In this document: positions 1,572 to 36,595 of the stretch, piece by piece
Position numbering within the stretch: position 1 is the first letter of the stretch
How the letters are laid out: every line of letters starts with the position of its first letter
Assembly: GCA_030426345.1 (NCBI GenBank)
Contig: JAUHYU010000044.1
Location: 1-41,182, forward strand
From: Bacteroidia bacterium
GTDB taxonomy: Bacteria; Bacteroidota; Bacteroidia; Cytophagales; Cyclobacteriaceae
Direction: 5' to 3'
Length of the DNA: 41,182 nucleotides
Notes under the pieces: model-generated
What the model was told of the DNA's origin: nothing
What the model saw: only the letters and a program-made list of their open reading frames with translations
Databases searched by the model: none
Translations under genes and position numbers: made by a program

Positions 1572-1594
1572 TTCATGGATTTTAGGGGCTTTTT
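1572..1594 (+). repeat. interspersed 23-bp element, intergenic copy
   Basis: TTCATGGATTTT, then AGG, then GGCTTTTT: a full match to the element described in the findings. Twenty bases are shared exactly with the inverted copy inside rsmH at 3124-3146. Confidence 0.8.
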
Positions 1595-1816
1595 CCCATC
1601 TCCTTGAGTTAAAGAAGCGCATTAGCCCCCTCGATTAATTTGTATTCAATTGGCAAATCCATATTGACATTACCACTCTTCTCTACATATAAATCGCCTC
1701 ATTTATACTTAAAGCTATTATTTAAGCCAAATGGCCTAAATATCCATGCACTAAAATGCAACAAAAATCTGTTGTTGTTAAATGATAAAAAAATGTCAGA
1801 AAGTGGGGCAAAGTGG

Positions 1817-1846
1817 TTGAAATTGTTGCGTTAATTAATATCTTTG
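1817..1846 (+). promoter_or_regulatory. promoter of mraZ and the dcw operon
   Basis: TTG at 1817-1819, a 19-base spacer, and TATCTTTG at 1839-1846, an exact TAnnTTTG -7 box of the Bacteroidota primary sigma factor. The mraZ ATG is at 1877. This is the only good promoter I see before the tightly packed dcw genes. Confidence 0.65.
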
Positions 1847-1876
1847 TTCAAATAGAGTAAATTTATTCCCAAACGA

Positions 1877-2320
1877 ATGTCTTTTTTCTCGGGTGAATAT
1901 GAGTGTAAAATCGATGCTAAAGGAAGGATGACCTTGCCGTCAAAGGTGAAGTCAAAATTTCCCGAGGTATCCGGCAACCAAATGGTCCTCAGCCTCGGCA
2001 TGGAGCCATGCCTAGTTTTATACCCGATGGTGGAGTTTAGGAAAATCTATTCTAGGGTAGCATCTATGAATGAATTTGATGATGAACCCCGCATGTTTCA
2101 GAGAACATTTTCTAGAAGAATCTCCGAAGTTGATTTAGATAGTGCGGGAAGAATTTTAATTCCCAAATCTATGCTCAAATTCGCCAGCCTCGAAAAAGAA
2201 GTGACCATGGTTGGCATGGGCAACAGGATGGAACTATGGTCACCTGAAATTTTTGAAGAATACATTATCAATGACAATATAGAATTCAAAAAATTAGCGC
2301 AAAAACACTTAATTGATTGA
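1877..2320 (+). CDS. mraZ: MraZ, transcription regulator of the dcw cluster
   Basis: MraZ is an AbrB-fold protein that in other bacteria binds repeats upstream of its own gene and represses the dcw operon. The 147-residue length is usual. Both halves carry the family motif: YECKIDAKGRMTLPSKVK near the N-terminus and EVDLDSAGRILIPKSML around residues 84-100. It is the first gene of the cluster, 31 bases behind a good promoter. Its stop codon overlaps the next start in TGATG, so rsmH is probably translated by coupling. I did not find clear direct MraZ-box repeats between the promoter and the start, so autoregulation is assumed from the family. Confidence 0.97.
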   Translation: MSFFSGEYECKIDAKGRMTLPSKVKSKFPEVSGNQMVLSLGMEPCLVLYPMVEFRKIYSRVASMNEFDDEPRMFQRTFSRRISEVDLDSAGRILIPKSMLKFASLEKEVTMVGMGNRMELWSPEIFEEYIINDNIEFKKLAQKHLID

Positions 2321-3234
2321 TGTTTCCCGTGATGACATACCACAGACCTGTACTTTTAAAAGAAAGCATAGACGCACTTCAGTTACAACCCGAGGGCAAT
2401 TATGCTGATCTTACATTCGGAGGAGGTGGGCATTCCATGGCTATTTTGGAGCATCTCAAAGGTGGAAAGCTTTATGCTTTTGATCAAGATGCGGATGCAG
2501 CCGAAAACGCTGCCCGTATCACAAGCAAGTCATTTTTTTTTATTAAAAACAATTTCAGGTACGTTGATAAGTTTCTGAAAATCCATGGCGTCCCTCAGGT
2601 TGATGGGATTTTGGCAGATTTAGGTGTATCGTCACATCAGATAGATACCCCCGAACGTGGCTTTTCTACCAGGTTTCAGGGAGACCTCGACATGCGCATG
2701 GATACCAAATCCGCTAAAAGTGCCAAGCAAGTTATAAACAACTATACCGAGGAAGATCTACATCGGATTTTTGGAATGTATGGAGAAGTACGCAATGCTA
2801 AAAGTCTGGCAGCGGCTATAAAAGAAGCAAGAACCAGTACCAAGATTCAGACCGTAGATGATCTGAAATTATTGCTTAATTCATTTGCACCAAGAGGGCG
2901 TGAATACAAATATTATGCTCAGGTTTTTCAGGCTCTGCGCATCGAGGTCAACAATGAATTGGAAGCACTTAAAGAAATGTTAGCCAACTGCGTGAAAGTA
3001 TTAAAACCTGGTGGGCGGTTGGTGATCATTTCTTATCACTCGCTTGAGGATCGTCTGGTGAAAAATTTTATTAATAAGGGTAAGTTTTATGGTGAAGTCG
3101 AAAAGGATCTTTATGGCAATGAATTAAAGCCCCTAAAATCCATGACCCGTAAGCCTGTGATGGCAACAGAGGAAGAGGTCCATGAGAATAACAGGGCAAG
3201 AAGTGCAAAAATGAGGATCGCAGAAAAATTCTGA
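2320..3234 (+). CDS. rsmH: RsmH, 16S rRNA (cytosine-1402 N4) methyltransferase
   Basis: RsmH (formerly MraW) uses S-adenosylmethionine to methylate N4 of C1402 in 16S rRNA. The SAM-binding loop is visible as ADLTFGGGGHS near residue 30, followed by DQDADA. Later come DGILADLGVSSHQID, RGFSTRFQGDLDMRMD, and near the end VIISYHSLEDRLVK and RARSAKMRIAEK. The length of about 304 residues is normal. I take the ATG at 2320 that overlaps the mraZ stop; ATG 2332 (MTYHRPVLL) is the other candidate and matches typical RsmH openings. The gene contains two inverted copies of the CATGGATTTT core (2578-2587 and 3135-3144), the second in a near-full element. Confidence 0.96.
   Translation: MFPVMTYHRPVLLKESIDALQLQPEGNYADLTFGGGGHSMAILEHLKGGKLYAFDQDADAAENAARITSKSFFFIKNNFRYVDKFLKIHGVPQVDGILADLGVSSHQIDTPERGFSTRFQGDLDMRMDTKSAKSAKQVINNYTEEDLHRIFGMYGEVRNAKSLAAAIKEARTSTKIQTVDDLKLLLNSFAPRGREYKYYAQVFQALRIEVNNELEALKEMLANCVKVLKPGGRLVIISYHSLEDRLVKNFINKGKFYGEVEKDLYGNELKPLKSMTRKPVMATEEEVHENNRARSAKMRIAEKF
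2578..2587 (-). repeat. core CATGGATTTT of the interspersed element inside rsmH
   Basis: Exact 10-base core on the minus strand; the GGCTTTTT half is not preserved. It encodes KIHG in RsmH. Confidence 0.45.
3124..3146 (-). repeat. interspersed 23-bp element inside rsmH
   Basis: On the minus strand: GTCATGGATTTT, AGG, GGCTTTAA. It differs from the 1572 copy only at the edges. It sits in codons for LKPLKSM in the less conserved C-terminal part of RsmH. Confidence 0.75.
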
Positions 3235-3235
3235 T

Positions 3236-3610
3236 ATGGCTGACAATACCTATAAAGTACAAAAAGGTGGGAAAGCAAAAGGAAGTTTGTTTTCATTTAT
3301 TGGCGACAAGTTCAAGTTAGATTCTTTGTTTGCCGATGGCGTGCCGTCCAAATATATTCCGCACACCCTCTTTCTGACCTGTATTGGTATTTTTTATATA
3401 GGCAATAATCATTGGGCAGAAAAAACAATACGCAAAATCGACAATACACGCGTTGAGGTTGAGGAGCTTCGCGCAGACTATACTTCCCTAAAAGCAGATT
3501 ATATGCTAGCCAGTAAACAATCGGAAGTAGCCAGAAAAGTTAAAAAAATAGGGTTGGAGGAAAGTTATATCCCTCCAAATAAAATTGTGACGAAGGAAGG
3601 TGAATATTAG
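3236..3610 (+). CDS. ftsL: FtsL-like divisome protein
   Basis: This 124-residue protein occupies the FtsL position between rsmH and the division transpeptidase gene. It has a cytoplasmic N-terminal tail rich in lysine and glycine, one membrane segment (about residues 42-58, IPHTLFLTCIGIFYIGN), and then a predicted coiled coil (about 60-105, RKIDNTRVEVEELRADYTSLKADYML). It ends in IGLEESYIPPNKIV, a form typical of Bacteroidota FtsL-like proteins. FtsL joins FtsQ and FtsB to activate the FtsW-FtsI synthase at the septum. The start lies one base after the rsmH stop, and the end overlaps the GTG start of ftsI. Sequence similarity among FtsL proteins is low, so the call rests on topology and position. 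Confidence 0.85.
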   Translation: MADNTYKVQKGGKAKGSLFSFIGDKFKLDSLFADGVPSKYIPHTLFLTCIGIFYIGNNHWAEKTIRKIDNTRVEVEELRADYTSLKADYMLASKQSEVARKVKKIGLEESYIPPNKIVTKEGEY

Positions 3611-5693: not shown

Positions 5694-7168
5694 TCTTATT
5701 AAAAGACATATTGTATAAAGTCTCTTTACAAGCTACCTCTGGAGATATGAACATCCCCATAGAAAAGGTGCAATTCGACTCTAGAAAAATAAGTAAAGGC
5801 GATTTATTTGTAGCTGTAAAAGGGACACAGGTTGATGGACATAACTATATCTCAACTGCAATTAAAAATGGTGCCGTGGCGGTTGTATGTGAAAAAGATA
5901 TCGCTCACATCGATAATGTTGCTATCGTCAGAACAGATGACAGCTCACATGCATTGAGCATCATCGCTGCCAATTACTATGGAAACCCATCATCTAAACT
6001 TAAGCTGGTTGGTGTAACGGGAACAAACGGCAAAACCACTACTGTATTTCTTTTGTTTGATCAGTTCCGAAAACTAGGGTACAACGTTGGGCTACTTTCT
6101 ACCATTATCAATAAAATCAATGAAGAAAAACTACCTTCTACCCATACTACGGGCGATTCTTTGCAAATAAATCATTTGCTCAAATCTATGGTAGATGCGG
6201 GATGTACACATTGTTTTATGGAAGTGAGCAGCCATGCCATCGACCAAAACCGGGTTGCCGGTCTACAATATGATGTGGCGGTCTTTACCAATATCACACA
6301 CGATCATCTCGATTATCACCTGACTTTTGATGCATATATTTCAGCTAAAAAGAAATTATTTGACAGCCTGAATCCGGAAGCTTTTGCATTGGTAAATGCC
6401 GATGACAAAAATGGAAGGATAATGGTTCAAAATACCAAAGCTAACAAAAAGACCTTTAGCGTCAGGGCGATGAGTGACTTCAAAGCCAAAATACTAACCA
6501 ATTCTCTACAGGGTTTAGAGTTGGAAATCGACAGCTTCAAGATATGGTTCAACCTCATCGGTGATTTTAACGCGTCTAACCTTGTCGCAGCATACGGCGT
6601 ATCTGTTTTGTTGGACGAAGATCCAGAACAGGCACTTGTAGCACTATCTGCAACCAATCCAATCCCAGGACGATTTGAGCGTGTGCCTCTAAAGAATAAT
6701 ACCATCGCTATAATCGATTATGCACATACCCCTGATGCCCTCAAAAATGTGCTTAAAACCATAACCAACGTACGTACCCACAAAGAACAGGTAATCACGG
6801 TAGTTGGTTGTGGTGGCAATCGCGACAAAGAAAAACGGCCGATCATGGGGGGGATTGCTTGCAAAATGAGCAATAAGGTCATTTTTACTTCCGACAATCC
6901 CCGGGATGAATCGCCCGAAGAGATCATTGAGCAAATGAAAGCAGGCGTAAGACCGTCTGACTTCAAAAAAACATTATCTGTTGTTGATAGAAAAGAAGCC
7001 ATCAAAACTGCGCTTATGCTGTCTGAGGGTAATGACATCATATTGATTGCTGGCAAGGGGCATGAGGATTATCAAGAAATCCATGGAAAAAAGAGGGATT
7101 TCAGTGATAAAAAAACACTACTCGAGCTTGAGGCCTTGTTGTACAACGATAAACCGGATCAAGAATAA
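5690..7168 (+). CDS. murE: MurE, UDP-MurNAc-L-Ala-D-Glu:meso-diaminopimelate ligase
   Basis: MurE adds the third amino acid to the peptidoglycan precursor in the cytoplasm, at the cost of ATP. The ATP loop GTNGKTTT is at about residues 111-118, and ITHDHLDYH marks the central domain. The substrate-selecting motif DNPRDE begins at about residue 402. DNPR is the form that binds meso-diaminopimelate, so the cell wall should be of the meso-DAP type, as expected in Bacteroidota. [13 protein letters not shown] near the C-terminus is also characteristic. Its start overlaps the ftsI stop (ATGA) and its stop overlaps the mraY start (TAATG). murF is not in this cluster. Confidence 0.97.
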
Positions 7169-8382
7169 TGCTATACTATCTATTCACATATCTTAAAGAG
7201 CAATTCGATTTGGTTGGTGCCGGGGTGTTCCAATACATCTCCTTTAGGGCAGGCATGGCGGCGGTTTTGTCCTTGATTATCACCATTGTTTTTGGCAAAG
7301 CTCTTATTCGGATGCTGCGCAGAAAGCAGGTTGGGGAGAGCATTCGTGACCTTGGGCTCGATGGCCAAATGGAAAAAAAGGGCACGCCTACCATGGGGGG
7401 TATCATCATAATCTTGGCGATAATATTGCCTACACTATTGTTTTCCCAAGTGGGAAATATATATGTAATACTGATTCTGATCGCTACTGTATGGATGGGT
7501 TTGATAGGCTTTTTAGACGATTACATCAAAGTATTTAAAAAGAATAAAGAAGGCCTTCGCGGTATTTTCAAAATATTTGGCCAGATCGGGCTTGGCCTTA
7601 TCGTTGGCCTCACACTGTTCTATCATAGCGATGTATTGGTTCGTGAATTTGCTCAAGAACAAATAATCGATAGTGATATGGAAATAAGTGAGTTGGTTTA
7701 TAAAGATGTCAAATCCACCAGATCTACTATTCCGTTTTTAAAAAACAATGAGCTGGATTATAGCTCTTTTACCTTTGGCCTTGGCGACTGGATGACCATG
7801 CCTATTTATGTTGGCTTTGTAATCCTCATCATCATGGCGGTATCTAACGGAGCCAATATCACAGATGGCATTGATGGGCTAGCTGCCGGCACATCCGCTA
7901 TAATCGGTCTGACCTTAGCCATTTTGGCCTACGTATCAGGCAACGTGATTTTTTCAGACTACCTTAATATTATGTATATCCCGGGCTCTGGAGAATTGGT
8001 GATTTTTTGTTCAGCATTTGTGGGAGCTTGTATTGGTTTCCTTTGGTTCAATGCCTACCCGGCCCAAGTATTTATGGGCGACACAGGAAGCCTTTCCCTT
8101 GGAGCAATCATCGCTGTATTGGCTTTGACAATCAGAAAAGAACTACTCATACCTGTATTATGTGGAATTTTTCTAATTGAAAATATGTCAGTAATCATTC
8201 AGGTTGCTTATTTCAAATATACTAGAAAAAAATACGGTGAGGGGCGCAGAATCTTTCTGATGTCACCATTGCACCATCATTACCAAAAAAAGAATTGGCA
8301 CGAGGCAAAGATAGTTACACGATTTTGGACGGTAGGTATCTTACTGGCCATATTGACATTAGCAACGTTGAAATTGAGGTAA
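7168..8382 (+). CDS. mraY: MraY, phospho-MurNAc-pentapeptide transferase
   Basis: MraY is an integral membrane enzyme that transfers phospho-MurNAc-pentapeptide to undecaprenyl phosphate, giving lipid I. Visible signatures are [13 protein letters not shown] (about 66-78), [12 protein letters not shown] (about 114-125), [15 protein letters not shown] (about 228-242), [11 protein letters not shown] and the C-terminal [11 protein letters not shown]. About ten membrane segments alternate with these loops. At 404 residues it is longer than the E. coli enzyme (about 360). The extra length is a polar insertion around residues 155-205 that I know from other Bacteroidota MraY, so it is not an anomaly. 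The stop codon runs straight into a copy of the interspersed element. Confidence 0.97.
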
Positions 8383-8403
8383 AAAGGCTTTAAAATCCAT
8401 GAA
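8381..8403 (-). repeat. interspersed 23-bp element between mraY and murD
   Basis: On the minus strand: TTCATGGATTTT, AAA, GCCTTTTT. It begins within the mraY stop codon and fills nearly half of the 55-base gap to murD, the only sizeable gap in the dcw operon. Confidence 0.75.
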
Positions 8404-10976: not shown

Positions 10977-12086
10977 ATCGAAAAGAAAAAAACATATCGA
11001 CTGATCATTAGCGGAGGGGGTACTGGAGGACACGTATACCCTGCCATTGCCATTGCCAACAAAATGAAGGAAATATATCCGGATACAGAAATTCTGTTTG
11101 TTGGTGCCAAAGGCAAAATGGAAATGGAAAAAGTTCCCGATGCCGGATATCGTATCGAAGGGCTATGGATCAGTGGCCTACAGCGCAAATTGACTTTCAA
11201 AAACCTTCTTTTCCCCATCAAGCTTTTGGTAAGCATGATAAAGATTAAGAAAATCATCGCTGCTTTCAAACCGGATGTGGTGATCGGAGTGGGTGGATAT
11301 GTCAGCGGACCTGCGCTACGCGCTGCGGCAAATAAAGGCATTCCTACCTTGCTACAGGAGCAAAATTCCTACGCAGGGCTTACCAATAAGTTATTAGCAA
11401 AGAAAGCCAAATCTATCTGTGTGGCTTATGAAAATATGGGCGTCTATTTCCAAAAGGAAAAAATTACGGTTACAGGAAATCCCGTACGCAATGACATTAT
11501 CAATGTAGATCAAAAACGTAGTCAGGCCATCAAATTTTTTGGACTTGATCCAAGCAAAAAAACCATTTTTGCCTTTGGCGGAAGCCTAGGTGCGAGAACT
11601 ATCAATGAAAGTTTGATCAAATATATTCCGGATCTCAACGCCTCTGAAATACAGGTGATCTGGCAAATAGGTTCATTCTATTTCAAAGAATTTGAGGATA
11701 GACTCAAAGGCATGGATTTAAAGCACATTCGACACTTTGAATTTCTTAAAGAGATGGACTTGGCCTATGCAGCGGCTGATGTGGTAATATCACGAGCTGG
11801 AGCACTTTCAATTTCTGAAATATGCCTTGCCGGTAAACCTGCCATTTTTGTTCCTTCGCCAAATGTGGCTGAAGACCATCAAACCAAAAATGCCATGGCA
11901 CTGGTAAAAGAAAATGCTGCCTTAATGATAAAAGATAGCGATGCTCTGGTAAACCTAGTTCCCGAAGCGCTAAAAATCGTTTGCAATGATGATCTCAGGA
12001 TTGAATTATCCGTCAACATACGTCGACTAGGAAAGCCAAATGCAGCAGAAAATATTGTCAAAGAAATCATCCGAATAGCGCAGTGA
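10977..12086 (+). CDS. murG: MurG, undecaprenyl-PP-MurNAc-pentapeptide N-acetylglucosaminyltransferase; non-canonical start
   Basis: MurG is a peripheral membrane GT-B enzyme that adds GlcNAc to lipid I to give lipid II. The donor-side loop ISGGGTGGHVYPAIAIAN, then VGVGGYVSGPA, FAFGGSLGARTIN, SRAGALSISE and AEDHQTKNA are all present. The odd part is the start. The conserved N-terminal loop is encoded upstream of the first ATG (11064), which would cut off the essential GGGTGGH. The frame stays open from 10944, but between there and 11064 it has no ATG, GTG or TTG. An ATC at 10977 would give an opening reading EKKKTYRLIISGGGTGGH, just where MurG usually begins; ATA at 10962 or 10965 and CTG at 11001 are alternatives. 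The gene is intact otherwise and overlaps murC by four bases. Confidence 0.9.
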   Translation: MEKKKTYRLIISGGGTGGHVYPAIAIANKMKEIYPDTEILFVGAKGKMEMEKVPDAGYRIEGLWISGLQRKLTFKNLLFPIKLLVSMIKIKKIIAAFKPDVVIGVGGYVSGPALRAAANKGIPTLLQEQNSYAGLTNKLLAKKAKSICVAYENMGVYFQKEKITVTGNPVRNDIINVDQKRSQAIKFFGLDPSKKTIFAFGGSLGARTINESLIKYIPDLNASEIQVIWQIGSFYFKEFEDRLKGMDLKHIRHFEFLKEMDLAYAAADVVISRAGALSISEICLAGKPAIFVPSPNVAEDHQTKNAMALVKENAALMIKDSDALVNLVPEALKIVCNDDLRIELSVNIRRLGKPNAAENIVKEIIRIAQ

Positions 12087-13474
12087 GAATTGAAGATAAA
12101 CATATCGTCTATTTCTTAGGTATCGGAGGCATCGGTATGAGTGCGCTGGCGAGGTGGTTTTTACATCTTGGTAAAAAAGTGTATGGCTATGACAAAACAG
12201 AAACCCCTTTGACGCTAAAACTTGTCGAAGAAGGGGCTATAATCCATTACGATGATGCTGTCGAGAATATAGCTTCAGAGGTGCTGAATGCGAAAGAAGA
12301 TGTGCTGGTCGTCTTCACCCCTGCGGTACCTAAAAACCACAAAGAACTCAATTATTTCCATGAAAATAATTTTTCCGTTCTGAAACGATCTGAAGTCCTC
12401 GGCCTCATCACCAAAGATTTGTATTCTGTGGCAGTAGCCGGAACTCATGGAAAAACAACTACTTCTTCGATGATTGCACACATTTTAAAAAGTGCAGGAC
12501 GGTCAAGCATGGCACTTATGGGCGGTATTTTACAAGGGTACGAATCCAACCTGATCATTGAAGGAGAGCATTCCAAAGATACCATTGCCATATTAGAAGC
12601 TGATGAATATGACAGGTCGTTTCTAAGGCTTTCTCCAGATATCGCTGTGGTTACATCCGCCGATCCGGATCATTTGGACATTTATGGAGCACATGAAGAA
12701 ATGAAATCTTCATTTCAGGAATTCATTCAAAAGGTAAAACCAAACGGGCACGTGTTCATCAATGAAATTCTAATTTCATGGCTAGCCATGGAAAAACAAG
12801 GCATTTCAAGCCACACTTATGCCTTAGGGGGAAAAGTTAATTACGCTAAAAATACTCACATTTCTGACACAGATTTTGTGTTCGATTTTCATGGAGAAAA
12901 TGATGTTTTAGAAGGAGTAAGACTGGCTATTCCTGGATACCACAATGTGGAAAACGCCATCGTTGCCATCGCTGTATGTCTGCAATTGGGTATCGAAAAA
13001 ACACATATTAAAGCGGCCCTCTCTTCTTTCAAAGGAGTTAAAAGACGATTTGAATACCATTTAAAAAGTGAAAACTTGGTATATATCGACGACTATGCAC
13101 ATCATCCAGTAGAGATCAAAGCCTTCATTGGTTCTGTAAAGCAGATGTACCCTGGCAAGAAGATCACGGCTATTTTCCAGCCACACCTCTTCACCCGCAC
13201 GAGGGATTTTGTGGATGGTTTTGCAGAAAGCCTTAGCATGGCTGATGAAGTGATTCTTATGAATATCTACCCAGCTCGTGAATTGCCAATTGAAGGGATC
13301 ACGTCAAAAATTATTTTTGATAAAATCACCCATAAGAATAAACATATTATTGAAGATGCTAAGCTCTTAGACACAGTAGACTCCATGGATTTTGAGGTCA
13401 TTTTAACGATAGGTGCGGGAAATATAGATCGGTTTGTTGCGTCAATTGCCACATTATTGAAAGAAAAGGTATGA
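12083..13474 (+). CDS. murC: MurC, UDP-N-acetylmuramate:L-alanine ligase
   Basis: MurC starts the peptide stem by adding L-alanine to UDP-MurNAc. It opens with the nucleotide-binding loop VYFLGIGGIGMSALARWF, followed by the ATP loop AVAGTHGKTTTSSM (about 117-130), EADEYDRSF, TSADPDHLDIYG, and GVKRRFEYHLKSENLVYIDDYAHHPVEI at the start of the C-terminal domain. FQPHLFTRTRDF also fits. The 463-residue length is normal. The GTG start overlaps the murG stop (GTGA) and the stop overlaps ftsQ (ATGA). A copy of the interspersed core lies in the codons for DSMDFEV near the end. Confidence 0.97.
   Translation: MRIEDKHIVYFLGIGGIGMSALARWFLHLGKKVYGYDKTETPLTLKLVEEGAIIHYDDAVENIASEVLNAKEDVLVVFTPAVPKNHKELNYFHENNFSVLKRSEVLGLITKDLYSVAVAGTHGKTTTSSMIAHILKSAGRSSMALMGGILQGYESNLIIEGEHSKDTIAILEADEYDRSFLRLSPDIAVVTSADPDHLDIYGAHEEMKSSFQEFIQKVKPNGHVFINEILISWLAMEKQGISSHTYALGGKVNYAKNTHISDTDFVFDFHGENDVLEGVRLAIPGYHNVENAIVAIAVCLQLGIEKTHIKAALSSFKGVKRRFEYHLKSENLVYIDDYAHHPVEIKAFIGSVKQMYPGKKITAIFQPHLFTRTRDFVDGFAESLSMADEVILMNIYPARELPIEGITSKIIFDKITHKNKHIIEDAKLLDTVDSMDFEVILTIGAGNIDRFVASIATLLKEKV
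13382..13404 (+). repeat. interspersed element, diverged copy inside murC
   Basis: TCCATGGATTTT, GAG, GTCATTTT: exact core, one changed base in the GGC triplet and one in the T-run. It encodes SMDFEVIL, so protein constraint could explain part of it. Confidence 0.45.
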
Positions 13475-17784: not shown

Positions 17785-17807
17785 AAAAAGCCTCAGAAAT
17801 CCATGAC
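17785..17807 (-). repeat. interspersed 23-bp element, intergenic copy with one core change
   Basis: On the minus strand: GTCATGGATTTC, TGA, GGCTTTTT. One base differs from the core CATGGATTTT. It lies between the two minus-strand terminators at 17685-17710 and 17833-17860. Confidence 0.65.
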
Positions 17808-22305: not shown

Positions 22306-22324
22306 TAAGCTAAATATATAAAGC

Positions 22325-22357
22325 AAAGCCCCAATCCAGATGGATTGGGGCTTTTTT
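22325..22357 (+). terminator. intrinsic terminator of dnaK
   Basis: A 13-bp GC-rich stem (22325-22337 with 22342-22354), a four-base loop and a T-run to 22357, 20 bases after the stop. The 3' arm TGGATTGGGGCTTTTTT resembles the interspersed element with bases missing in its middle. Confidence 0.9.
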
Positions 22358-22368: not shown

Positions 22369-23346
22369 TCAACAAAGCACCCAAAATCCATGAAATTGGT
22401 TGACTGTCTTGCTGAGACTAAATATCTGATGCATTAATAAAATATAAATCCTTTTCAGATACCACCAAAACGGAATGGAAATGATAGCATCAAACCAACC
22501 ACCAATCGAAGAATTCCTAATATTATACGGCTCATATTCCTCTATGTAAAAAGCACTAATACCACCTATTGATATTTTTCTGCTTTCATCCAAATTAATA
22601 TTTATCCGGTTTGACTCGGCTCCATCAGCCAGATCATACATGGAAATTTCAATATTTTTTCGTTTGCCAATCTTATAAGCATAGGCAATGCCAGTCTTAT
22701 CAGCAGGAAAATACTTTCCCTTATAAATGATATATGTGACGATTTGTGGGCATCCTACATCCAAAGCTTTTTTGAGCTTTTCCCATTCCATCACCTTTTT
22801 GTTCTTAAGCCAGTTTTTCCCACTCAATGGAATATGTAGATCAAAATCAACCTTGACTTTAGTATAATAACCAGTGGACTGAACTACTTCCTTGACTTTT
22901 TCTGCAATACTATTTTCTCCAATCCAAGAATCTGGCATCAACGCTGATATTGTAACCGCTTTTAGCTGATTGGCAGTTTTAATTCTAATACCTTCATCAG
23001 TTCTCTTCTTTAGGTATGTCTGGAAGTTTGACCTTCTTTTACTTTGTAAATTTTTGAATCTTCTAGGAATTACTTTTTTAGCATGATAATAGTCCATTAC
23101 CATAAAGTATAATCCAATACTTAAAATGCCTTGAGAACCCATGCTCATTTTACTCCAACCGCTCAGCCATGGTTCTATTTCGTATGCCGGAATCGCGCCA
23201 AGATAGTTTTGCCTTATATAACCTAATATATCTGACTTTATCTCCTCAAAAAATGATGGATTGGGCAGGGTTTGAAATTGCTTAAAATGCTCTTGCTGTG
23301 TGATGTTTAGCCCATCAATGAAAGGTTGAAAGCCATTAAAATCCAT
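22369..23346 (-). CDS. unknown 325-residue protein, last gene of the DUF2589 operon; possible inactive papain-like fold
   Basis: I do not recognise this protein with confidence. Two segments recall bacterial C39/papain-like hydrolases: MGSQGILSIGLYFMVMDYYHA (about 68-88), where such enzymes have a Cys-Gly-Gly motif before an aspartate-tyrosine helix, and CPQIVTYIIYKGKYFPADKTG with AYAYKIG and EISMYDLADGAES (about 200-245), where they have a His and an Asp. Here the expected Cys and His are absent, so if the likeness is real it is a non-catalytic member. A hydrophobic stretch near residues 287-310 (FDAIISIPFWWYLKRIYILL) may touch membrane. It begins 16 bases after the preceding gene. Both its first and last codons lie inside copies of the interspersed element. 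Confidence 0.65.
   Translation of the reverse strand: MDFNGFQPFIDGLNITQQEHFKQFQTLPNPSFFEEIKSDILGYIRQNYLGAIPAYEIEPWLSGWSKMSMGSQGILSIGLYFMVMDYYHAKKVIPRRFKNLQSKRRSNFQTYLKKRTDEGIRIKTANQLKAVTISALMPDSWIGENSIAEKVKEVVQSTGYYTKVKVDFDLHIPLSGKNWLKNKKVMEWEKLKKALDVGCPQIVTYIIYKGKYFPADKTGIAYAYKIGKRKNIEISMYDLADGAESNRININLDESRKISIGGISAFYIEEYEPYNIRNSSIGGWFDAIISIPFWWYLKRIYILLMHQIFSLSKTVNQFHGFWVLC
22372..22394 (-). repeat. interspersed 23-bp element at the 3' end of the 325-residue gene
   Basis: On the minus strand: TTCATGGATTTT, GGG, TGCTTTGT. Exact core. It encodes the last residues FHGFWVLC before the TGA. Confidence 0.7.
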
Positions 23347-23349
23347 GAA
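23327..23349 (-). repeat. interspersed 23-bp element at the start of the 325-residue gene
   Basis: On the minus strand: TTCATGGATTTT, AAT, GGCTTTCA. Its ATG is the start codon of the 325-residue protein, which therefore begins MDFNGFQ. Confidence 0.75.
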
Positions 23350-23362: not shown

Positions 23363-23695
23363 TTATTTATTGTACGTATGGTTCTTCATCACCTCGATCA
23401 GCTTGCTGTATCCTTTGGGTTCAGGACATTCCGAAATACTGATATCAACTTTCATGGATTTATAACCAAATAAATGATATCGAGTTGGCTCTGTCTCAGA
23501 AGGATGCTCTCCTTCACCACTATCCCCTTTCTTCTGAAATCTGCCTCCAAATGCACTGATTTTCCATGACCGCAAAAGCACCTTTTGTTGAAAAATATAT
23601 GCTAAAGTCATCGAAAATCCATGGCTCAGTCTGTGGATAAACTTACCCCAAACCCCGAATTTAGTTATGTCGCTCTGCTGCTCGCCGGAATTCAT
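23363..23695 (-). CDS. unknown 110-residue protein of the DUF2589 operon
   Basis: No family is recognised. The protein is basic in its first half (FGVWGKFIHRLSHGFSMTLAYIFQQKVLLRSWK), with one moderately hydrophobic stretch (about 25-41) that could be amphipathic. A Gly/Glu-rich linker follows (KKGDSGEGEHPSETEPTRY), then a short strand-like C-terminal part (MKVDISISECPEPKGYSKLIEVMKNH). It starts nine bases after the zinc-ribbon gene and is followed after 16 bases by the 325-residue gene, so it is very likely co-transcribed. A diverged copy of the interspersed element overlaps the codons for SHGFS, and TTCATGGATTT recurs near its 3' end (23451-23461). Confidence 0.6.
   Translation of the reverse strand: MNSGEQQSDITKFGVWGKFIHRLSHGFSMTLAYIFQQKVLLRSWKISAFGGRFQKKGDSGEGEHPSETEPTRYHLFGYKSMKVDISISECPEPKGYSKLIEVMKNHTYNK
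23603..23625 (-). repeat. interspersed element, diverged copy inside the 110-residue gene
   Basis: On the minus strand: GCCATGGATTTT, CGA, TGACTTTA. The core is exact but the second half is poor. It encodes SHGFSMT. Confidence 0.45.
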
Positions 23696-28049: not shown

Positions 28050-28676
28050 TTACGGGATATTCATGAATTTATGTACCTGTAACGATATTTCCCAGCGGGG
28101 ATTGTTTTTGACGTATGCTATGATTTGCGGTAGCATTTCATCAGCCTTAGACCATTCCGGTTGTAAATAAAGCTTACAGCCTGTACTAACTTTCGCTGCC
28201 ATTTGTTCACCCCACTTGAAATCATGTTTGTTAAAAACAATTACTTTAAGCTCATCTGCACTTTGAAATACTTCTGGCAGTGGTTGCTTGAATTTTTTTG
28301 GAGAAAGGCAAATCCAATCCCAAACCCCTGTTAGCTTATAGGCTCCGGAAGTCTCCAAATGTGTGTTAAATCCATGGATTTTCAGTGCTATTGTCAACAC
28401 TTCAAGGTCATACATCAATGGCTCTCCGCCTGTAATCACAACCATTTTGGAAGTGGATTCCTGCGCCATAGCAATCATGTCACTTACTGCAACAAACTCA
28501 TGATCTCCGGCATTCCAAGATTCCTTTACATCACACCAAGTGCACCCTACATCACACCCTGCCAATCTGATGAAGTACGCCGCCTTTCCAGAATGAAATC
28601 CCTCACCCTGAACGGTATAGAAATTTTCCATCAATGGAAGTTTCATATCGATTTCGGCAAGTTCTGTTTTGTCCAT
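28050..28676 (-). CDS. queE: QueE, 7-carboxy-7-deazaguanine synthase
   Basis: QueE is a radical-SAM enzyme that turns 6-carboxytetrahydropterin into 7-carboxy-7-deazaguanine on the way to queuosine. The Fe-S cysteines are in CDVGCTWCDVKESW (a Cx3Cx2C arrangement) after the opening PLMENFYTVQGEGFHSGKAAYFIRLAG. MVVITGGEPLMYDL is the SAM-contact motif, and HLETSGAY follows. The 208-residue length is usual. The other queuosine genes (queC, queD, queF) are not in the window. It lies 37 bases after folD on the same strand. A diverged copy of the interspersed element falls in the codons around KIHGFNTH. Confidence 0.93.
   Translation of the reverse strand: MDKTELAEIDMKLPLMENFYTVQGEGFHSGKAAYFIRLAGCDVGCTWCDVKESWNAGDHEFVAVSDMIAMAQESTSKMVVITGGEPLMYDLEVLTIALKIHGFNTHLETSGAYKLTGVWDWICLSPKKFKQPLPEVFQSADELKVIVFNKHDFKWGEQMAAKVSTGCKLYLQPEWSKADEMLPQIIAYVKNNPRWEISLQVHKFMNIP
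28371..28393 (+). repeat. interspersed element, copy inside queE
   Basis: TCCATGGATTTT, CAG, TGCTATTG: exact core, weak T-run. It lies antisense to the queE codons for KIHGF. Confidence 0.5.
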
Positions 28677-28713: not shown

Positions 28714-29598
28714 CTAATTGTATATTTTTTTCTCTGCGGCAAGCAGCGTATTCATCAACAAAGATGCCCTGGTCATTGGTCCCACACCTCCAGGCACAGG
28801 GGTGATAAAACTGCACTTTGGAGCCACACTGTCAAAATCCACATCGCCTTTCAATGCAAATCCGCTTTTCTTAGATGCATCCTCTACACGGGAAATTCCC
28901 ACATCAATGACCACAGTATCTTCTTTAATCATATCCCCGGTCAAGAATCCAGGAATACCCAATGCCGCAACGACAATATCCGCCTGCAACGTCATTTCCT
29001 TGATATCTTTCGTCCTGCTATGGCACAACGTGACCGTACAGTTGCCTGGGTAGCCCTTTCGCGAAAGCAGGATGCTCATTGGCGATCCTACGATATCACT
29101 CCTTCCGATGACCACGCAGTGCTTGCCAGAAGTTTCAATTTCATACCTTTCTAACAATTGCAAAATACCATATGGTGTAGCAGAAATATATGCAGGAAGA
29201 CTTTTGGCCATGCGCCCAACATTGACGGGGTGAAAGCCATCTACGTCCTTTTCAGGTTTTATCCTATCAGTAACTTTTTGTACAGAAATATGATCTGGAA
29301 TCGGCAATTGAACGATCAATCCATCAATGTCCGGATCGTCATTAATTCTTTCTACTTCTTCTAAAAGTTCCTCCTCAGTCACTGAATTGTCGAACCGCTT
29401 CAGGGTGGACTTGTACCCGACCTGAGCACAATCTTTTACCTTATTGCTGACATAGGCTTCGCTCGCTCCGTCATTCCCCACCAAAATTGCCGCAAGATGG
29501 GGAATTTTACCTCCCTTGATTTTTATTGCTTCTACCTTTTCAGCAATTTCAATTCTAATGTCCGAAGATGTTTTTTTTCCGTCGAGTAGTGTTGCCAT
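28714..29598 (-). CDS. folD: FolD, methylenetetrahydrofolate dehydrogenase/cyclohydrolase
   Basis: FolD interconverts 5,10-methylene-, 5,10-methenyl- and 10-formyl-tetrahydrofolate with NADP+. The catalytic lysine lies in [16 protein letters not shown] (near residue 55), and [12 protein letters not shown], the second signature, follows at about 94. The NADP-binding loop is [18 protein letters not shown] (about 160-177), and the C-terminal signature is [17 protein letters not shown] (about 268-284). The 294-residue length is normal. It has the housekeeping one-carbon role, and sits between lepA and queE, all reading leftwards. A 116-base gap with a copy of the interspersed element separates it from lepA. 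Confidence 0.97.
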
Positions 29599-29665: not shown

Positions 29666-29688
29666 GTCATGGATTTTTAATGCTTTTT
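29666..29688 (+). repeat. interspersed 23-bp element between folD and lepA
   Basis: GTCATGGATTTT, TAA, TGCTTTTT: exact core and full T-run, in the short gap between lepA and folD. Confidence 0.75.
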
Positions 29689-29714: not shown

Positions 29715-31502
29715 TCAATCCAACTTGAGCACTGCCATAAATGCCTCTTGAGGAATTTCCACATTCCCCACACTTTTCATACGTTTCTTGCCCTTTTTCT
29801 GCTTCTCAAGAAGCTTTCTCTTCCTTGTAATATCTCCACCGTAGCATTTTGCCAATACATTTTTTCGCATGGCTTTCACGCTTTCTCTCGCAATAATCTT
29901 GGTACCAATAGATGCCTGTATGGCAATCTCAAACATCTGGCGAGGTATCAATCCTCTTAATTTTTCACAAAGTCGCTTGCCCCATTCGTAAGCCTTGTCT
30001 CGATGCACAATGGCCGATAGTGCATCTACTTTATCACCATTGAGCATAATATCCAACTTCACCATGGTTGATTTTTGATATCCAATCAACTCATAATCCA
30101 AAGAAGCATAGCCACGAGAGATGGTTTTCAAACGGTCAAAAAAGTCAAAGACAATTTCTGCCAAAGGCAATTCAAACGTTAATTCTACACGATCACTAGT
30201 GAGATAAACCTGATTTTTGATCACCCCGCGCTTGTCGATAGCCAAGGCAATAATCGGCCCGATATAATCTGATTTCGAAATGATTTGTGCCTTGATATAT
30301 GGCTCCTCAATATGCGATATCGTATTAGGCTCCGGCATTTCGGCAGGTGCGTTTACTTCCAAAAAGGTTCCATCAGTCTTGATTGCCCGAAACTGCACCG
30401 ATGGCACAGTAGTAATCACGGTCATGTCAAACTCTCGCTCCAGCCGTTCCTGAACTATTTCCATGTGCAGCATTCCGAGGAACCCACACCTAAACCCAAA
30501 ACCAAGTGCTACGGATGTTTCAGGCTCCCACACCAACGAGGCATCGTTAAGCTGTAGCTTTTCCATGGAGGCGCGAAGCTCCTCATATTCGCTGGTCTCT
30601 ACCGGGTAAATGCCTGCAAAAACCATGGGTTTCACATTTTCAAATCCTTTGATTCCTTTGGCACAAGGACGGTCCACATGCGTGATCGTATCCCCAACTT
30701 TTACTTCTTTGGCAACTTTGATTCCGGAAATAAGATATCCAACATTTCCGGCACTGATTTTATTTGCTGGTTGTTGTTTGAACCCTAGCACTCCTATTTC
30801 ATCAGCATCGTATGTTTTTCCGGTATTGATGAATTTTACTTTATCCCCTTTTCTTATTTCTCCATTGAATATTCTGAAGATAACTTCTATTCCCCTGTAT
30901 GAATTGAAAACAGAATCGAAGATCATGGCCTGTAGCGGCTCGTCTGGGTTACCGCTTGGTGCAGGCACTCGGTTTACAATGGCTTCCAGAATTTCAGCAA
31001 TTCCAATCCCTTCCTTTGCGGATGCATAAACTACATCATCTCCATCTATACCAAGCAGATCGACTATTTGGTCTTTTACTTCTTCGGGTTGTGCACCAGG
31101 AAGATCAATTTTATTGATTACCGGAATGATCTCTAAATCATGCTCCATGGCAAGATAAAGATTGGAAATGGTCTGCGCTTCGATACCCTGAGATGCATCC
31201 ACAATCAACAAGGCCCCTTCACATGCCGCGATTGACCTGGATACTTCATACGAAAAATCCACGTGCCCGGGAGTGTCGATAAGATTTAGAATATAATCCG
31301 CACCCTCATAGTGATAATTCATTTGAATTGCATGGCTTTTGATCGTGATCCCCCGCTCGCGCTCCAAATCCATATTATCGAGCAACTGCTCTTGCATCTC
31401 CCTCGCGGTCACAGTAGAAGTGGCCTCCAAAAGGCGATCGGCCAAGGTGCTTTTTCCATGGTCGATGTGTGCGATAATGCAGAAATTCCTTATTTTTTCC
31501 AT
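29715..31502 (-). CDS. lepA: LepA (elongation factor 4), ribosome-associated GTPase
   Basis: LepA is a translational GTPase that acts on the ribosome, helping initiation or back-translocation. The P-loop [14 protein letters not shown] is at about residues 9-22; [14 protein letters not shown] and NKIDLPGA complete the G domain. [20 protein letters not shown] marks domain III, and the C-terminal LepA-specific domain carries [39 protein letters not shown]. The length is 595 residues from the ATG at 31502, which gives [16 protein letters not shown] as in other LepA; an in-frame TTG six bases earlier is less likely. An exact -7 box lies 18 bases upstream. Confidence 0.97.
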
Positions 31503-31519
31503 ACCCAAAAAACGAACTG

Positions 31520-31527
31520 CAAAAGTA
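31520..31527 (-). promoter_or_regulatory. -7 box of the probable lepA promoter
   Basis: On the minus strand TACTTTTG matches TAnnTTTG exactly and would start a leader of only about ten bases before the lepA ATG. A TTG at the ideal 19-base distance is missing; the nearest is 24 bases upstream. Confidence 0.4.
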
Positions 31528-31607
31528 GGTATTATTAAGAGAATTCTGCACCAACTGGATTAAAAAATAAAAAAAAGGCCTAGCCGCTTATGGATGATTC
31601 GCTCATC

Positions 31608-31630
31608 AAAAAGCCTTAAAAATCCATGGA
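31608..31630 (-). repeat. interspersed 23-bp element upstream of lepA
   Basis: On the minus strand: TCCATGGATTTT, TAA, GGCTTTTT. Exact core and complete second half. It overlaps the outer stem of the hairpin at 31575-31617. Confidence 0.8.
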
Positions 31631-31807
31631 TTTGAAATGATTTAAAGAATGGGTTCTTAGAGACAAGGAACAATAAGTCGATGCATAATGAAGATATCAC
31701 TGATAAGTGACTAAACAAATGCTTTAAGTTATGGTTATTGCCTTATCTGACTAGGTTTAGCTATCACGCTAGGTATTCAAATTTCTTGAGATTAAAATAT
31801 TCTTAAA

Positions 31808-32461
31808 ATGGCTGCTACAAAAAGAAAGAAAATCACCAAAGAACAAATTGTCTCAAAATACATGGATTATGTATTGGAAGAGGAGCGATTGCCTGTTTCA
31901 GTTTTCAAGTTTTGTAAAAACATAAAAATATCTGAAGCAGAATTCTATGCTCATTTTGGCAATTTCGAAGCAATTCAATCCTCCATTTGGATAACATTTT
32001 TCCAACATACACTCACCCTGATCGAAAAGTCTCAAGAGTACTCAAGGTATGACAACCGAGGGAAATTACTTGCATTTTACTACACCTTCTTTGAGTTGTT
32101 GACCGCAAACAGAAGTTATGTATTATTTGCCTTGGATCAAAAGGGGGATCTTTCCGGGAAAATCAGACAGCTGGCTCCTCTATCAAAACTTTTCAAAGGG
32201 TACCTGGCCAAAGAAAACATGGTAAGCGAAGACGTCAACAAAAAACTCCAAATTCCAACTGCTGCGATGGAGGAATTGGGTTGGGGCCAATTTTTGGTCA
32301 TTCTGCGATTTTGGATTAAAGACCAGTCTCCGGGATTTGAAAAGACCGATGTCATGATCGAAAAATTCGTCAATACGGCTTATGACATTTCCGACTACAA
32401 GCCACTTGAGAGCATTGTTGATTTTGCCAAATTCATCATCAACGAAAAAGCCATTTTATGA
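31808..32461 (+). CDS. TetR-family transcription regulator
   Basis: A 217-residue TetR-type repressor. The helix-turn-helix occupies roughly residues 12-57 (KEQIVSKYMDYVLEEE, then SVFKFCKNIKISEAEFYAHFGNFEAIQSSIW), and the rest is an all-helical ligand-binding and dimerisation domain. The first helix lacks the usual Ala-rich core and the domain looks diverged, but the FYAHFGN turn is characteristic. Its last four bases (ATGA) overlap the start of a UbiB-type kinase gene. This TetR-kinase pair recurs in Bacteroidota, frequently near photolyase and carotenoid genes, so it likely regulates its own operon and possibly the convergent photolyase group. Confidence 0.85.
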   Translation: MAATKRKKITKEQIVSKYMDYVLEEERLPVSVFKFCKNIKISEAEFYAHFGNFEAIQSSIWITFFQHTLTLIEKSQEYSRYDNRGKLLAFYYTFFELLTANRSYVLFALDQKGDLSGKIRQLAPLSKLFKGYLAKENMVSEDVNKKLQIPTAAMEELGWGQFLVILRFWIKDQSPGFEKTDVMIEKFVNTAYDISDYKPLESIVDFAKFIINEKAIL

Positions 32462-33804: not shown

Positions 33805-33821
33805 GCTCCTCTCCCTACTTG

Positions 33822-35099
33822 CTAACTAAGAATTCCGGCTTTATAGGTTTCCAAGGCTCTATTTCTGGCAAACTTATGATCGATCATTTGCACTGGATAT
33901 TTAGATGATCCCAATTCCGGAATCCATTTTTTGACATAAGCCTCCGACTTATCGAATTTTCTCAGCTGTTCCATAGGATTAAAAATCCTAAAATAAGGAG
34001 CAGCGTCACAACCGGTTCCTGCCGCCCACTGCCAGTTCCCATTGTTCGAAGACAGTTCGTAGTCCAGAAGTTTTTTGGCGAAGTAAGCTTCCCCCCAGCG
34101 CCAATCAATCAAAAGATGTTTGCATAAAAACCCAGCGACTACCATCCTCACACGGTTGTGCATATAGCCTGTATTATTCAACTGCCTCATTCCCGCATCA
34201 ACAAGTGGGTAGCCTGTTTCACCATTGCACCACTTTTCAAAATCATTCGCATCATTCAACCATTGAATTCCATCGTATTTTGATCGAAAGTTTTGCGTGA
34301 CAACATTTGGAAAGTGAAGGAGAATCTGCATAAAAAATTCCCTCCAGATCAATTCACTTAAGAATGTCTGATCACTCGCCTTGAGTTTCGCGATAACTTG
34401 CCGAATGCCTATAGTCCCGAATCGAAGATGTGGGCTCAAATAGCTTGTAGAATCCATGAATGGGTAATTGCGGGTTTCTGCGTAAGTGTCGGCATTGTTG
34501 AGGACAAAGTCCCTTACAGTAATCTTTGATTCAATAAAGCCCAAAAATTCCATGGATGGGAAAGGGTATTGCTCTTTATGAAAGTTTGTGAATGTTATTG
34601 GGGGTTTGATTTTTTGTGGATTATAAAGCTCTAGCCATTTATTTTTATATGGCGTAAAGACTGTGTAAGGCGTTCCGTCTGCTTTCATGACTTCCGATTC
34701 CTCATGGATTACCTGGTCTTTGAAAGCAATGAGCTCAATGCCATTTTCGGCCAGAAGCTTTGCTATTTTATAATCTCGTTCAATCGCATACGGTTCGTAA
34801 TCCTTATTGATGAAAACACTTTCTATAGCATATTTATCGATCAAGTCTTTCCAAACTTCTCCTATTTTTCCTTTTAGAATTAAGACTGAAGAACCATTTG
34901 CTTGCAAGTTTTGGTTTATTCCCTTGAGCGTCTTATAAATGAAATTCACACGTGGATCATTGTCCGGTAATTCGTCCAGAATGCTTTCATCGAAAATGAA
35001 AATAGGCAAGACGTTTTTCTTTTGAGTTATCGCAGCATGCAAAGCAGTGTTGTCTTCCAACCTCAAATCTCTCCTGAACCAAAAAATCGATGTCTTCAT
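33822..35099 (-). CDS. phr: class I CPD photolyase (cryptochrome/photolyase family)
   Basis: A light-driven DNA repair flavoprotein that splits cyclobutane pyrimidine dimers. The N-terminal Rossmann domain begins SIFWFRRDLRLEDNTALHAA. The FAD-binding domain (about 200-425) shows SELIWREFFMQIL, GETGYPLVDAGMRQLNNTGYMHNRVRMVVAGFL, and NNGNWQWAAGTGCDAAPYFRIFNP, the signature of bacterial class I CPD photolyases. The 425-residue length is short but usual in Bacteroidota. It is the third of three leftward genes after a cupin and an SDR/DUF2867 protein (18-base gap), and faces the TetR-kinase pair. A variant of the interspersed element lies in the codons for SMEFLGFI. Confidence 0.94.
   Translation of the reverse strand: MKTSIFWFRRDLRLEDNTALHAAITQKKNVLPIFIFDESILDELPDNDPRVNFIYKTLKGINQNLQANGSSVLILKGKIGEVWKDLIDKYAIESVFINKDYEPYAIERDYKIAKLLAENGIELIAFKDQVIHEESEVMKADGTPYTVFTPYKNKWLELYNPQKIKPPITFTNFHKEQYPFPSMEFLGFIESKITVRDFVLNNADTYAETRNYPFMDSTSYLSPHLRFGTIGIRQVIAKLKASDQTFLSELIWREFFMQILLHFPNVVTQNFRSKYDGIQWLNDANDFEKWCNGETGYPLVDAGMRQLNNTGYMHNRVRMVVAGFLCKHLLIDWRWGEAYFAKKLLDYELSSNNGNWQWAAGTGCDAAPYFRIFNPMEQLRKFDKSEAYVKKWIPELGSSKYPVQMIDHKFARNRALETYKAGILS
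34535..34556 (-). repeat. interspersed element, variant copy inside phr
   Basis: On the minus strand: CCATGGAATTTTT followed by GGGCTTT. The core has one shift (GGAATTTT for GGATTTT) and the second half is good. It encodes SMEFLGF. Confidence 0.4.
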
Positions 35100-35117
35100 T
35101 TAATAGAAAATAAACTC

Positions 35118-36542
35118 TTAAGAATTACCATTCGTTAGTTTTTTTAGCATTCCATTGAATATCGCTCCATGAAAAGGAAGAACTGCAAACCAGTATAACC
35201 TTCCCATTAAACCCAGAGGTCTAAAAGTAGCCATCTGAACCAGTTCGCCGGAAACAACTTTGAATTCGAGCCAGGCCTCGCCGGGCAATTTCATCTCTGC
35301 AATTAGAAGTAACCGACCTTCGCTTTTATTAGCATAAAGCACCCTCCAAAAGTCTAGGGCATCGCCAACATGCAGAGAATCAGGATTTGTACGGCCTCTT
35401 CTCAATCCAACACCTCCAACGATTTTGTCCATAAAACCTCTCAATTTCCATAGCCAATCCCCATAATACCAACCTGTTCGTCCGCCTATACTCCATATTT
35501 TATCAATACACGCTTCCCTATTTTGGAATGCCATTTTGCGTGTATCTATAAAACACCCAAAAGTAGGCACTTGAATAAAATCAGAAATATGACTCCTCAT
35601 GCCACTACTTGCATAAGCATCTTTCCAGCTAGAAATAATTTCGTTGTTTTCAATTTTACTGAAAGCTTTGGCCAAAGCCTCTCTATAACTTATAGGAGTT
35701 ACACTTAAAATATTATTGAGCTTGGTGTTCCGACAAATCACCTCCATTTTCATGCTGTTGACCAAAGCCACGGCAAGTTTATAGGAAGTCGAAGTGACGA
35801 AATAAAGCCAATAAGAAGACAGCCTTGGCGTCATGACCGGAACAGTGTAAATTTTCCGATTTAATTTCCGAATCCGACCAAACTCTAGAAGCATCTCTTT
35901 GTAGGAAAGAATGTCAGGGCCGCCAATATCAAAATCCTGATTGTAGGTTTTCGAATTAAAAATTGTTTTGGTTAGAAAGGAAATCACGTCTGAAATTCCA
36001 ATCGGCTGACATCGATTATCTATCCATTTTGGGGTAACCATGATTGGAAGTTTCTCAACTAAATCCCGAATAATCTCAAAAGAGGCGCTTCCTGAGCCGA
36101 TTATAATTCCAGCTCTTAGCGTTGTGAAATTGTAATTGCCTGCACCGAGTTCTGATTCAACTGTTTTCCTTGAAGTCAAATGCTTTGACAATTGTGTTTC
36201 ATTTGCAATGCCACTCAAATAAACCACGTGATTAATTTTTGTCCCCTTCAATGCATCCCTGAAATTTATGGCTGATTCTCGCTCAAGCACTTGATAATCT
36301 GAAGATTCAGACATCGAATGAACCAAATAATACGCGCCATCAATGTTTTTCGGGATATTGTTCAAAGAGGCCTTATCTAAAAGATCAATTTGAATAATCT
36401 GAATTTTTTGGAGGATAGATTCGGGGGGATTGAACCGGCTTTTATCTCTTACGCAGCAAATAACCTCATGACCATCTTCGACCAAAATCGGAAGAAGCCG
36501 TTTGCCGATATAACCTGTTGCCCCTGTAAGCAGAATCTTCAT
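35118..36542 (-). CDS. SDR/NAD-dependent epimerase-like protein with C-terminal DUF2867 domain
   Basis: A 474-residue two-domain protein. The N-terminal Rossmann domain begins KILLTGATGYIGKRLLPILVEDGHEV and shows YYLVHSMSES and the NAD-binding pattern of atypical short-chain dehydrogenases. The C-terminal part (about 330-470, with GGRTGWYYGDWLWKLRGFMDKIVGGVGLRRGR, DALDFWRVL, LIAEMKLPGEAWLEFKV and TFRPLGLMGRLYWFAVLPFH) matches DUF2867, an SRPBCC-like domain. This fusion is widespread in Bacteroidota and often sits in light-induced clusters beside photolyases. The substrate is unknown. It reads with the photolyase and the cupin. Confidence 0.88.
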   Translation of the reverse strand: MKILLTGATGYIGKRLLPILVEDGHEVICCVRDKSRFNPPESILQKIQIIQIDLLDKASLNNIPKNIDGAYYLVHSMSESSDYQVLERESAINFRDALKGTKINHVVYLSGIANETQLSKHLTSRKTVESELGAGNYNFTTLRAGIIIGSGSASFEIIRDLVEKLPIMVTPKWIDNRCQPIGISDVISFLTKTIFNSKTYNQDFDIGGPDILSYKEMLLEFGRIRKLNRKIYTVPVMTPRLSSYWLYFVTSTSYKLAVALVNSMKMEVICRNTKLNNILSVTPISYREALAKAFSKIENNEIISSWKDAYASSGMRSHISDFIQVPTFGCFIDTRKMAFQNREACIDKIWSIGGRTGWYYGDWLWKLRGFMDKIVGGVGLRRGRTNPDSLHVGDALDFWRVLYANKSEGRLLLIAEMKLPGEAWLEFKVVSGELVQMATFRPLGLMGRLYWFAVLPFHGAIFNGMLKKLTNGNS

Positions 36543-36572
36543 TCATACTATACAGTCGAACGGCTATATTGT

Positions 36573-36595
36573 TTCATGGATTTTATGGGCTTTTT
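36573..36595 (+). repeat. interspersed 23-bp element between the SDR and cupin genes
   Basis: TTCATGGATTTT, ATG, GGCTTTTT: a perfect copy within the 120-base gap between two leftward genes. Confidence 0.8.

Follow-up and report, generated by a model that had tools for sequence, protein, structure and literature searches.

The window analysed here is a whole contig of 41,182 nucleotides (JAUHYU010000044.1, assembly GCA_030426345.1) from a Bacteroidia bacterium. Our subject is a 23-bp, two-part DNA element that recurs through it on both strands. The open reading frames (ORFs) used throughout are mechanical calls chosen by length; in the window they include ORFs for MraW-family, Mur ligase, HSP70, LepA, photolyase and catalase proteins. 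The Mur ligase ORF (12083-13474) is taken for murC. Its five best named matches are 67-74% identical and all derive from metagenome bins, of which three bear the label Cyclobacteriaceae, one Cytophagales and one Bacteroidetes. Judged by this kinship, the genome is of Cyclobacteriaceae type and the organism is apparently uncultured. The element has the consensus TY, the 10-bp core CATGGATTTT, three mostly purine bases, G or T, GC and TTTTT. Its halves keep a fixed distance. Thus, when spacers of 0-19 bases before GCTTT were examined, four bases were found 104 times, five bases 6 times and other lengths 5 times. Farther than ~35 bp from the word, the flanks share little signal.

Twelve exact cores are present in the window, at all positions and on all strands listed by an initial annotation of this DNA. 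In 100 dinucleotide shuffles the mean was 0.44 and the maximum 2. Hence, the abundance is far above chance, as that annotation stated, although its expectation of 0.1-0.2 copies was slightly low. When three mismatches or fewer are allowed, the 23-bp pattern matches 13 times, compared with 0.08 in shuffles. Full matches lie at 1572-1594 (+), in an intergenic position with the core starting 123 bp past the end of ORF 1074-1451; at 31608-31630 (−), between divergent ORFs 29715-31508 and 31808-32461; and at 36573-36595 (+), between ORFs 35118-36542 and 36663-37166. Copies with one mismatch are found at 8381-8403 (−), where the core starts 10 bp past the end of ORF 7168-8382, at 22372-22394 (−), in the 3′ end of ORF 22369-23346, and at 29666-29688 (+), between ORF 28714-29598 and the LepA-family ORF 29715-31508. 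Two mismatches are seen at 13382-13404 (+), near the 3′ end of the Mur ligase ORF and on the same strand, at 23327-23349 (−), spanning the start of ORF 22369-23346, and at 28371-28393 (+), within ORF 28050-28676 on the opposite strand. The MraW-family ORF (2317-3234) carries two copies on its opposite strand: 3124-3146 (−), with both halves and three mismatches to the 23-bp pattern, and 2567-2589 (−), with an exact core and a weak second half. The 19-bp two-part word in this ORF falls within a well conserved stretch. A further exact core with a weak second half is at 23603-23625 (−), within the mechanical ORF 23363-23695. The exact cores at 2578 and 23614 are outside the 13 pattern matches, their second halves being weak. 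Near copies reported at 17796 and 34545 are genuine: the first (17785-17807, −, core CATGGATTTC) is intergenic and the second (34534-34556, −, core CATGGAATTT) lies within the photolyase ORF 33822-35099. The same ORF holds one more, at 34449 (34438-34460, −, three mismatches).

Two local features accompany these copies. Right after the element at 22372-22394, at about 22323-22357 (−), is a terminator-like inverted repeat whose 3′ arm resembles a shortened element. The core at 23338-23347 (−) provides, through its CATGG, the start codon ATG of ORF 22369-23346, for which Pfam gave no match.

The window's own genome, G000, comprises 5.12 Mb in 182 contigs and has a rated completeness of 98.65%. 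It contains 1,474 cores (762 on one strand and 712 on the other; 288 per Mb), compared with 9 and 5 for a backwards control, and 465 copies of the two-part word CATGGATTTTNNNKGCTTT (238 and 227 by strand; control 0 and 0). For the bare core the backwards control is lenient; each of the 12 genomes sampled from outside the genus exceeded it (91 versus 14 in one, G007). The expectation of a fourth-order model is the better yardstick. In our main sample of G000 (41 loci, half of them picked for hits; 724,588 bp in total) 244 cores were found versus 21.5 expected, and the core is the top 10-mer by excess score. In an unselected subset of 20 loci (296,747 bp), not picked for hits, there were 80 cores versus 8.8 expected (270 per Mb). 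Similarly, CATGGATTTT ranks top in two 100-kb sets of unselected loci, with 28 and 24 copies. The window shuffles and genome-wide counts rule out chance or local duplication, so the concern that the copies might be limited to this window falls away. A codon-aware background, the other possibility that the initial annotation had raised against itself, is also refuted. In 576 ORFs of the sample there are 116 coding cores, while 100 synonymous shuffles gave 16.4 (maximum 25); for two-part copies in the same ORFs the figures are 19 and 0.6. A viral origin was rejected too: a viral collection yielded, as a raw count, 67 stretches with one match apiece. A short word repeated many hundreds of times, well beyond what a codon-aware null predicts, is what characterises the uptake signal sequences (USS) of Pasteurellaceae and the DNA uptake sequences (DUS) of Neisseriaceae.

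Constraint within the core is uneven. Among copies that keep the second half, 110 have an exact core, 42 carry a single change at the five ATTTT positions and 9 at the five CATGG positions. The 15 possible CATGG variants show no clear excess (observed/expected 0.3 to 1.9). For ATTTT variants the ratio runs from 0.5 to 5.1 and is at least 2 in 8 of 15. Neutral decay of a repeat should hit all positions equally; hence, CATGG would seem to be held by some reader, and the pattern of changes suggests a recognised motif, not an evenly decaying repeat.

In both intergenic and coding copies, AT-rich tracts are centred near −15, −4, 18 and 29, and coding copies retain the second half as well as these tracts. 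The phases were picked after the profile had been seen. The phase contrast was retested on copies unused before, drawn from G000, G001, G002, G003, G004 and G006 (the genus has seven genomes here, G000-G006). On the defining data, the contrast exceeded 1,000 of 1,000 nulls for the coding and for the intergenic class. For 62 fresh copies pooled it was reached by 4 of 2,000 nulls. By subset, it was reached by 48 of 2,000 in G000 (18 copies) and 5 of 2,000 in G002 (21 copies); for ten copies of G001, G004 and G006, 1,544 of 2,000 nulls reached the value. A near-invariant inner core with adjoining AT tracts is the USS arrangement; taken by itself, G003 lacks the phase contrast.

A constrained CATGG and phased AT tracts would equally suit a DNA-bending protein. 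The chief rival reading is of this kind: the element would be bound by an abundant nucleoid-type protein of this lineage that organises or silences the chromosome, and selection on chromosome structure would keep the ~1,500 sites. Consistent with this, copies occur in and between genes and on both strands. We know of no protein with such a site, which weighs against the idea, as does the spacing of the copies, which looks random. Should the word prove to be a chromosome protein's site, its ~1,500 copies would make up an exceptionally large set of sequence-specific sites.

The distribution of copies relative to genes is strongly skewed. In the unselected loci 41 of the 80 cores are in ORFs (155 per Mb), 37 are between ORFs (1,170 per Mb) and 2 lie across an edge; the whole sample of 244 divides into 120, 114 and 10. 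Inter-ORF density is eight- to ten-fold above in-ORF density, and is highest in convergent gaps (3,779 per Mb), followed by tandem (1,638) and divergent ones (1,034). Among 162 pairs of adjacent single copies, both members are on the same strand in 92. Strand polarity is absent within the sample contigs, which include no closed chromosome (χ2 33.3 on 37 degrees of freedom).

The absence of polarity bears on a reading in which the word is a polar or methylation-linked mark, like FtsK-orienting polar sequences (KOPS), Chi or highly iterated palindrome 1 (HIP1). The very strong over-representation in one lineage would fit such a mark. A polar mark is rejected by the strand data, so that the segregation and recombination marks (KOPS, Chi) among the initial guesses are unlikely. 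The word also differs from KOPS, Chi and HIP1 in being long, partly degenerate and in most copies not palindromic, and we consider the whole class improbable. HIP1 of cyanobacteria is likewise a short, highly over-represented word. However, excerpts of PMC4390886 describe it as an 8-bp palindrome tied to methyltransferases, whereas the word here is longer and usually non-palindromic.

Perfect palindromes centred on CATG, which the initial annotation missed, are present elsewhere in the genome; none is listed for the window. In the sample, 17 palindromic head-to-head pairs share a CATG and account for 34 of 244 cores. The palindrome extends to at least 16 bases per side, spacer included, in 13 of the 17, and once to 28. 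One pair lies within an ORF and one touches an ORF edge. At least 11 of 17 dyad pairs are formed in 39 of 118 intergenic copies and in none of 115 coding copies; the means are 8.70 (control 4.78) and 5.17 (control 4.37), respectively. Because coding copies show little dyad, we take the single word to be the basic unit.

RNA folding gave strong hairpins for three palindromic copies, with the U run inside the stem, while three single copies from the window folded no better than shuffles. An intrinsic terminator is a hairpin with a U run at its 3′ end, downstream of genes. Head-to-head pairs may double as two-way terminators. That the word is in general this lineage's transcription terminator or RNA processing signal would agree with these hairpins and with the density peak between convergent ORFs. 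Conversely, about half of the copies are within ORFs, the single window copies do not fold, and single copies in tandem gaps more often lie antisense to the neighbouring ORFs (31 of 47). The explanation can apply to the hairpin subset only, and as an account of the word we judge it very improbable.

To understand how copies arise, coding sites were compared with orthologues. A matching protein from a relative was available for 13 of the 116 coding sites, giving 25 site-by-relative pairs, six of them for the Mur ligase site. In 23 of the 25 the alignment is gap-free and the core differs by 1 to 9 bases; two are gapped. In the window, the site at 2567-2589 has 1-4 core differences in four orthologues, all gap-free, the site at 3124-3146 is gap-free in four, and the site at 13382-13404 is gap-free in six with 5-9 core differences. 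The gap-free alignments imply that the compared gene copies were written by substitution and are turning over. Thus, within genes, copies appear to arise by point mutation (13 coding sites), with an excess between genes, as for USS and DUS.

These alignments speak against a short palindromic mobile element, of the repetitive extragenic palindrome (REP) or miniature inverted-repeat transposable element (MITE) kind, with half copies as relics. An inserted repeat is rejected for the compared gene copies, and the initial guess at a relic of a short amplified element fares no better where coding copies could be compared. Some traits do resemble those of such elements: a few inverted repeats are perfect, with arms reaching 28 bases, one species has many copies where its sisters have few, and density is higher between ORFs. 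Against them stand the uneven spread of single changes, the lack of a common flank past ~35 bp and the low dyad pairing of coding copies given above. REP sequences with their bacterial interspersed mosaic elements, and MITE-type palindromes, share the species-specific high number and the intergenic hairpins. Here, however, most copies are non-palindromic, about half are in ORFs, and substitution gave rise to the ones that were compared. There is little chance, in our view, that the element is of this kind.

In the genomes scanned, the two-part word is nearly confined to the genus. G002 has 17 copies, G003 19, G005 8 and G006 2 (control 1); genome-wide, G001 and G004 have none. In a scan of 390 genomes of the family, 23 matched. 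Five belong to the genus and the remaining 18 have a single copy each (control: six matching genomes outside the genus). Among 395 genomes of the phylum 11 matched: G000, plus ten genomes that hold one or two copies apiece, where the control matched in one. Matches outside the genus are taken for strays. For the bare core, genome-wide counts per Mb were set against the model expectation from our samples. The observed and model values are 51.7 and 23.8 in G002, 23.3 and 13.9 in G003, 34.6 and 11.4 in G004, 18.6 and 10.5 in G006, and 13.9 and 9.0 in G001. G004, with a threefold excess of the core and zero two-part copies, is explained by neither an uptake nor a nucleoid reading. By Mur ligase identity G002, G003 and G005 are closest to G000 (72-74%); the other congeners are at 67-69%.

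Sister species spell the spacer differently. T at +10 is found in 20 of 26 copies of G002 and G003 versus 14 of 74 of G000, which prefers A (p 2e-7), and T at +13 in 21 of 26 versus 24 of 74, where G000 prefers G (p 2e-5). Hairpins were excluded from these counts, and the difference was spotted before testing. Such dialects between sister species are a further trait of USS and DUS. No replacement word of similar number was found in samples of the congeners without the element (G001, G004 and G006), nor a comparable word in 100 kb from each of four more distant genomes.

The nucleoid-type reading fits these comparisons poorly. The same gene position differs by 1-9 core bases between related species, and sister species have at most about one-fifth of the cores and at most 4% of the two-part copies. 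We consider that reading unlikely.

Our favoured reading, which we hold at about even odds, is that the element marks DNA as self and has spread because its uptake, via a pilus-independent route, is biased. A surface or periplasmic DNA receptor would recognise the rigid CATGG heart by direct readout and would sense the AT-rich tracts, ~11 bp apart, through shape. Word-bearing DNA from lysed kin would be imported preferentially, pass ComEC, be protected by DprA and then be recombined. Chance mutations towards the word would so be copied into more genomes than mutations away from it. This drive would fill intergenic DNA first, and genes only as the protein permits; head-to-head copies might also have been adopted as two-way transcription terminators. 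The receptor, uptake itself, the drive and the pilus-independent outer-membrane step are what we infer here. The initial annotation had offered the site of an abundant DNA-binding system, with uptake among its options, and that part of its guess fits the constrained core, the tolerated AT changes, the substitutions in genes and the species dialects.

Nearly all tested features match USS and DUS, the machine excepted. In excerpts of PMC7811141 and PMC1939737, Haemophilus influenzae has 1,465 USS cores in one genome (1,474 here), an exact inner core with AT tracts that have a shape role, no orientation bias and a non-coding excess; the former source also describes evolution by point mutation. 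PMC1939737 gives ~10% of uptake sequences as inverted repeats, compared with 34 of 244 cores here. The DUS of Neisseriaceae likewise form species dialects of one word, and overlapping dyad pairs are reported in one species (PMC3630211, in part). Conversely, the sequence is unrelated to USS, the phylum is another, and the cited work gives ~1,000 USS10 per Mb in Hin-type Pasteurellaceae versus 288 cores per Mb here. The sequence differs from DUS as well, and the dialect difference here sits in the spacer.

The uptake genes give a mixed picture. ComEC is present in all 19 genomes searched and DprA in all eight, G000 included in both cases; in G000 both have open frames. A ChlI-domain ORF of 513 amino acids in G000 is taken for ComM, from domain and size. 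Two cores lie within the probable comEC gene itself (L069:2465 and 3889). The two known uptake-word families begin uptake with a type IV pilus machine, according to excerpts of PMC7811141.

Several results weigh against biased uptake. Firstly, parts of a type IV pilus machine were not found: G000 has no T2SSE ATPase above the cut-off (one match at 7e-4 falls below), no T2SSF platform protein (searched for in G000 alone) and no secretin, which is also absent from seven relatives searched alongside. T2SSE exceeded the cut-off in 3 of the 19 genomes searched. Hence, pilus parts are unsupported here, as is the ComP receptor of DUS, which was not searched for. Secondly, ComEC and DprA are equally present in congeners without the two-part word and so do not discriminate. 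Thirdly, coding copies lean antisense to transcription (81 of 116, versus 60.5% expected; p 0.046), as do single copies in tandem gaps (p 0.04 for the 31 of 47 noted above). This lean is not predicted by the uptake model and is explained by neither the uptake nor the nucleoid reading. Fourthly, the phase contrast fails in G003 taken by itself (23 copies; 739 of 2,000 nulls), and a free periodogram peaks at 11.5 without being sharp. Finally, regular spacing of copies was looked for and is absent, the spacing being not clearly evener than random. The word behaves like an uptake word, but we do not file it as a member of the USS or DUS class, since our searches for the pilus machine found none and uptake itself was not seen.

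Strong uptake-word preference has so far been described for two families, both type IV pilus users (excerpts of PMC7811141). Somewhat more tentatively, we propose that the word is a self-DNA uptake code outside Pasteurellaceae and Neisseriaceae, in Bacteroidota, with a pilus-independent receptor, ~1,500 copies and dialects that separate species; as far as our literature searches reach, it would be the first. If so, this third independent case would mean that self-marking of DNA evolves repeatedly, and the word could be used as bait to isolate the DNA importer that these bacteria have. Molecular drive could then be followed from its start in the sister species, whose copies are few and spelled differently. 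Riemerella columbina, also of Bacteroidota, is reported to prefer its own DNA; the authors list only A/T-rich k-mers, whose role was untested there (PMC7965970). A text search of the literature for the 10-mer or its complement gave no bacterial-repeat title among the matches listed. Titles and opening lines of abstracts on uptake sequences in Bacteroidetes, Bacteroidota, Riemerella or Cytophaga, and on Cyclobacteriaceae palindromes, name no such word. A search for phased tracts in USS gave nothing.

Some minor observations concern individual genomes and loci. A strong T2SSE ATPase match sets two more distant relatives, G008 and G042, apart from the window's genus, with its seven genomes. Two 20-kb loci of G000 contain zero cores. 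One (L043:1-20000, contig C45) has ordinary-looking genes, for S-AdoMet synthetase, polysaccharide export, M23 and LysM proteins. The other (L039:1-20000, contig C41) has 23 mostly short ORFs of at least 400 bases, 22 of them on one strand. It also encodes a RhuM/Fic-type protein and carries a 132-bp repeat whose copies are separated by 7.5 kb, and it might be an acquired island.

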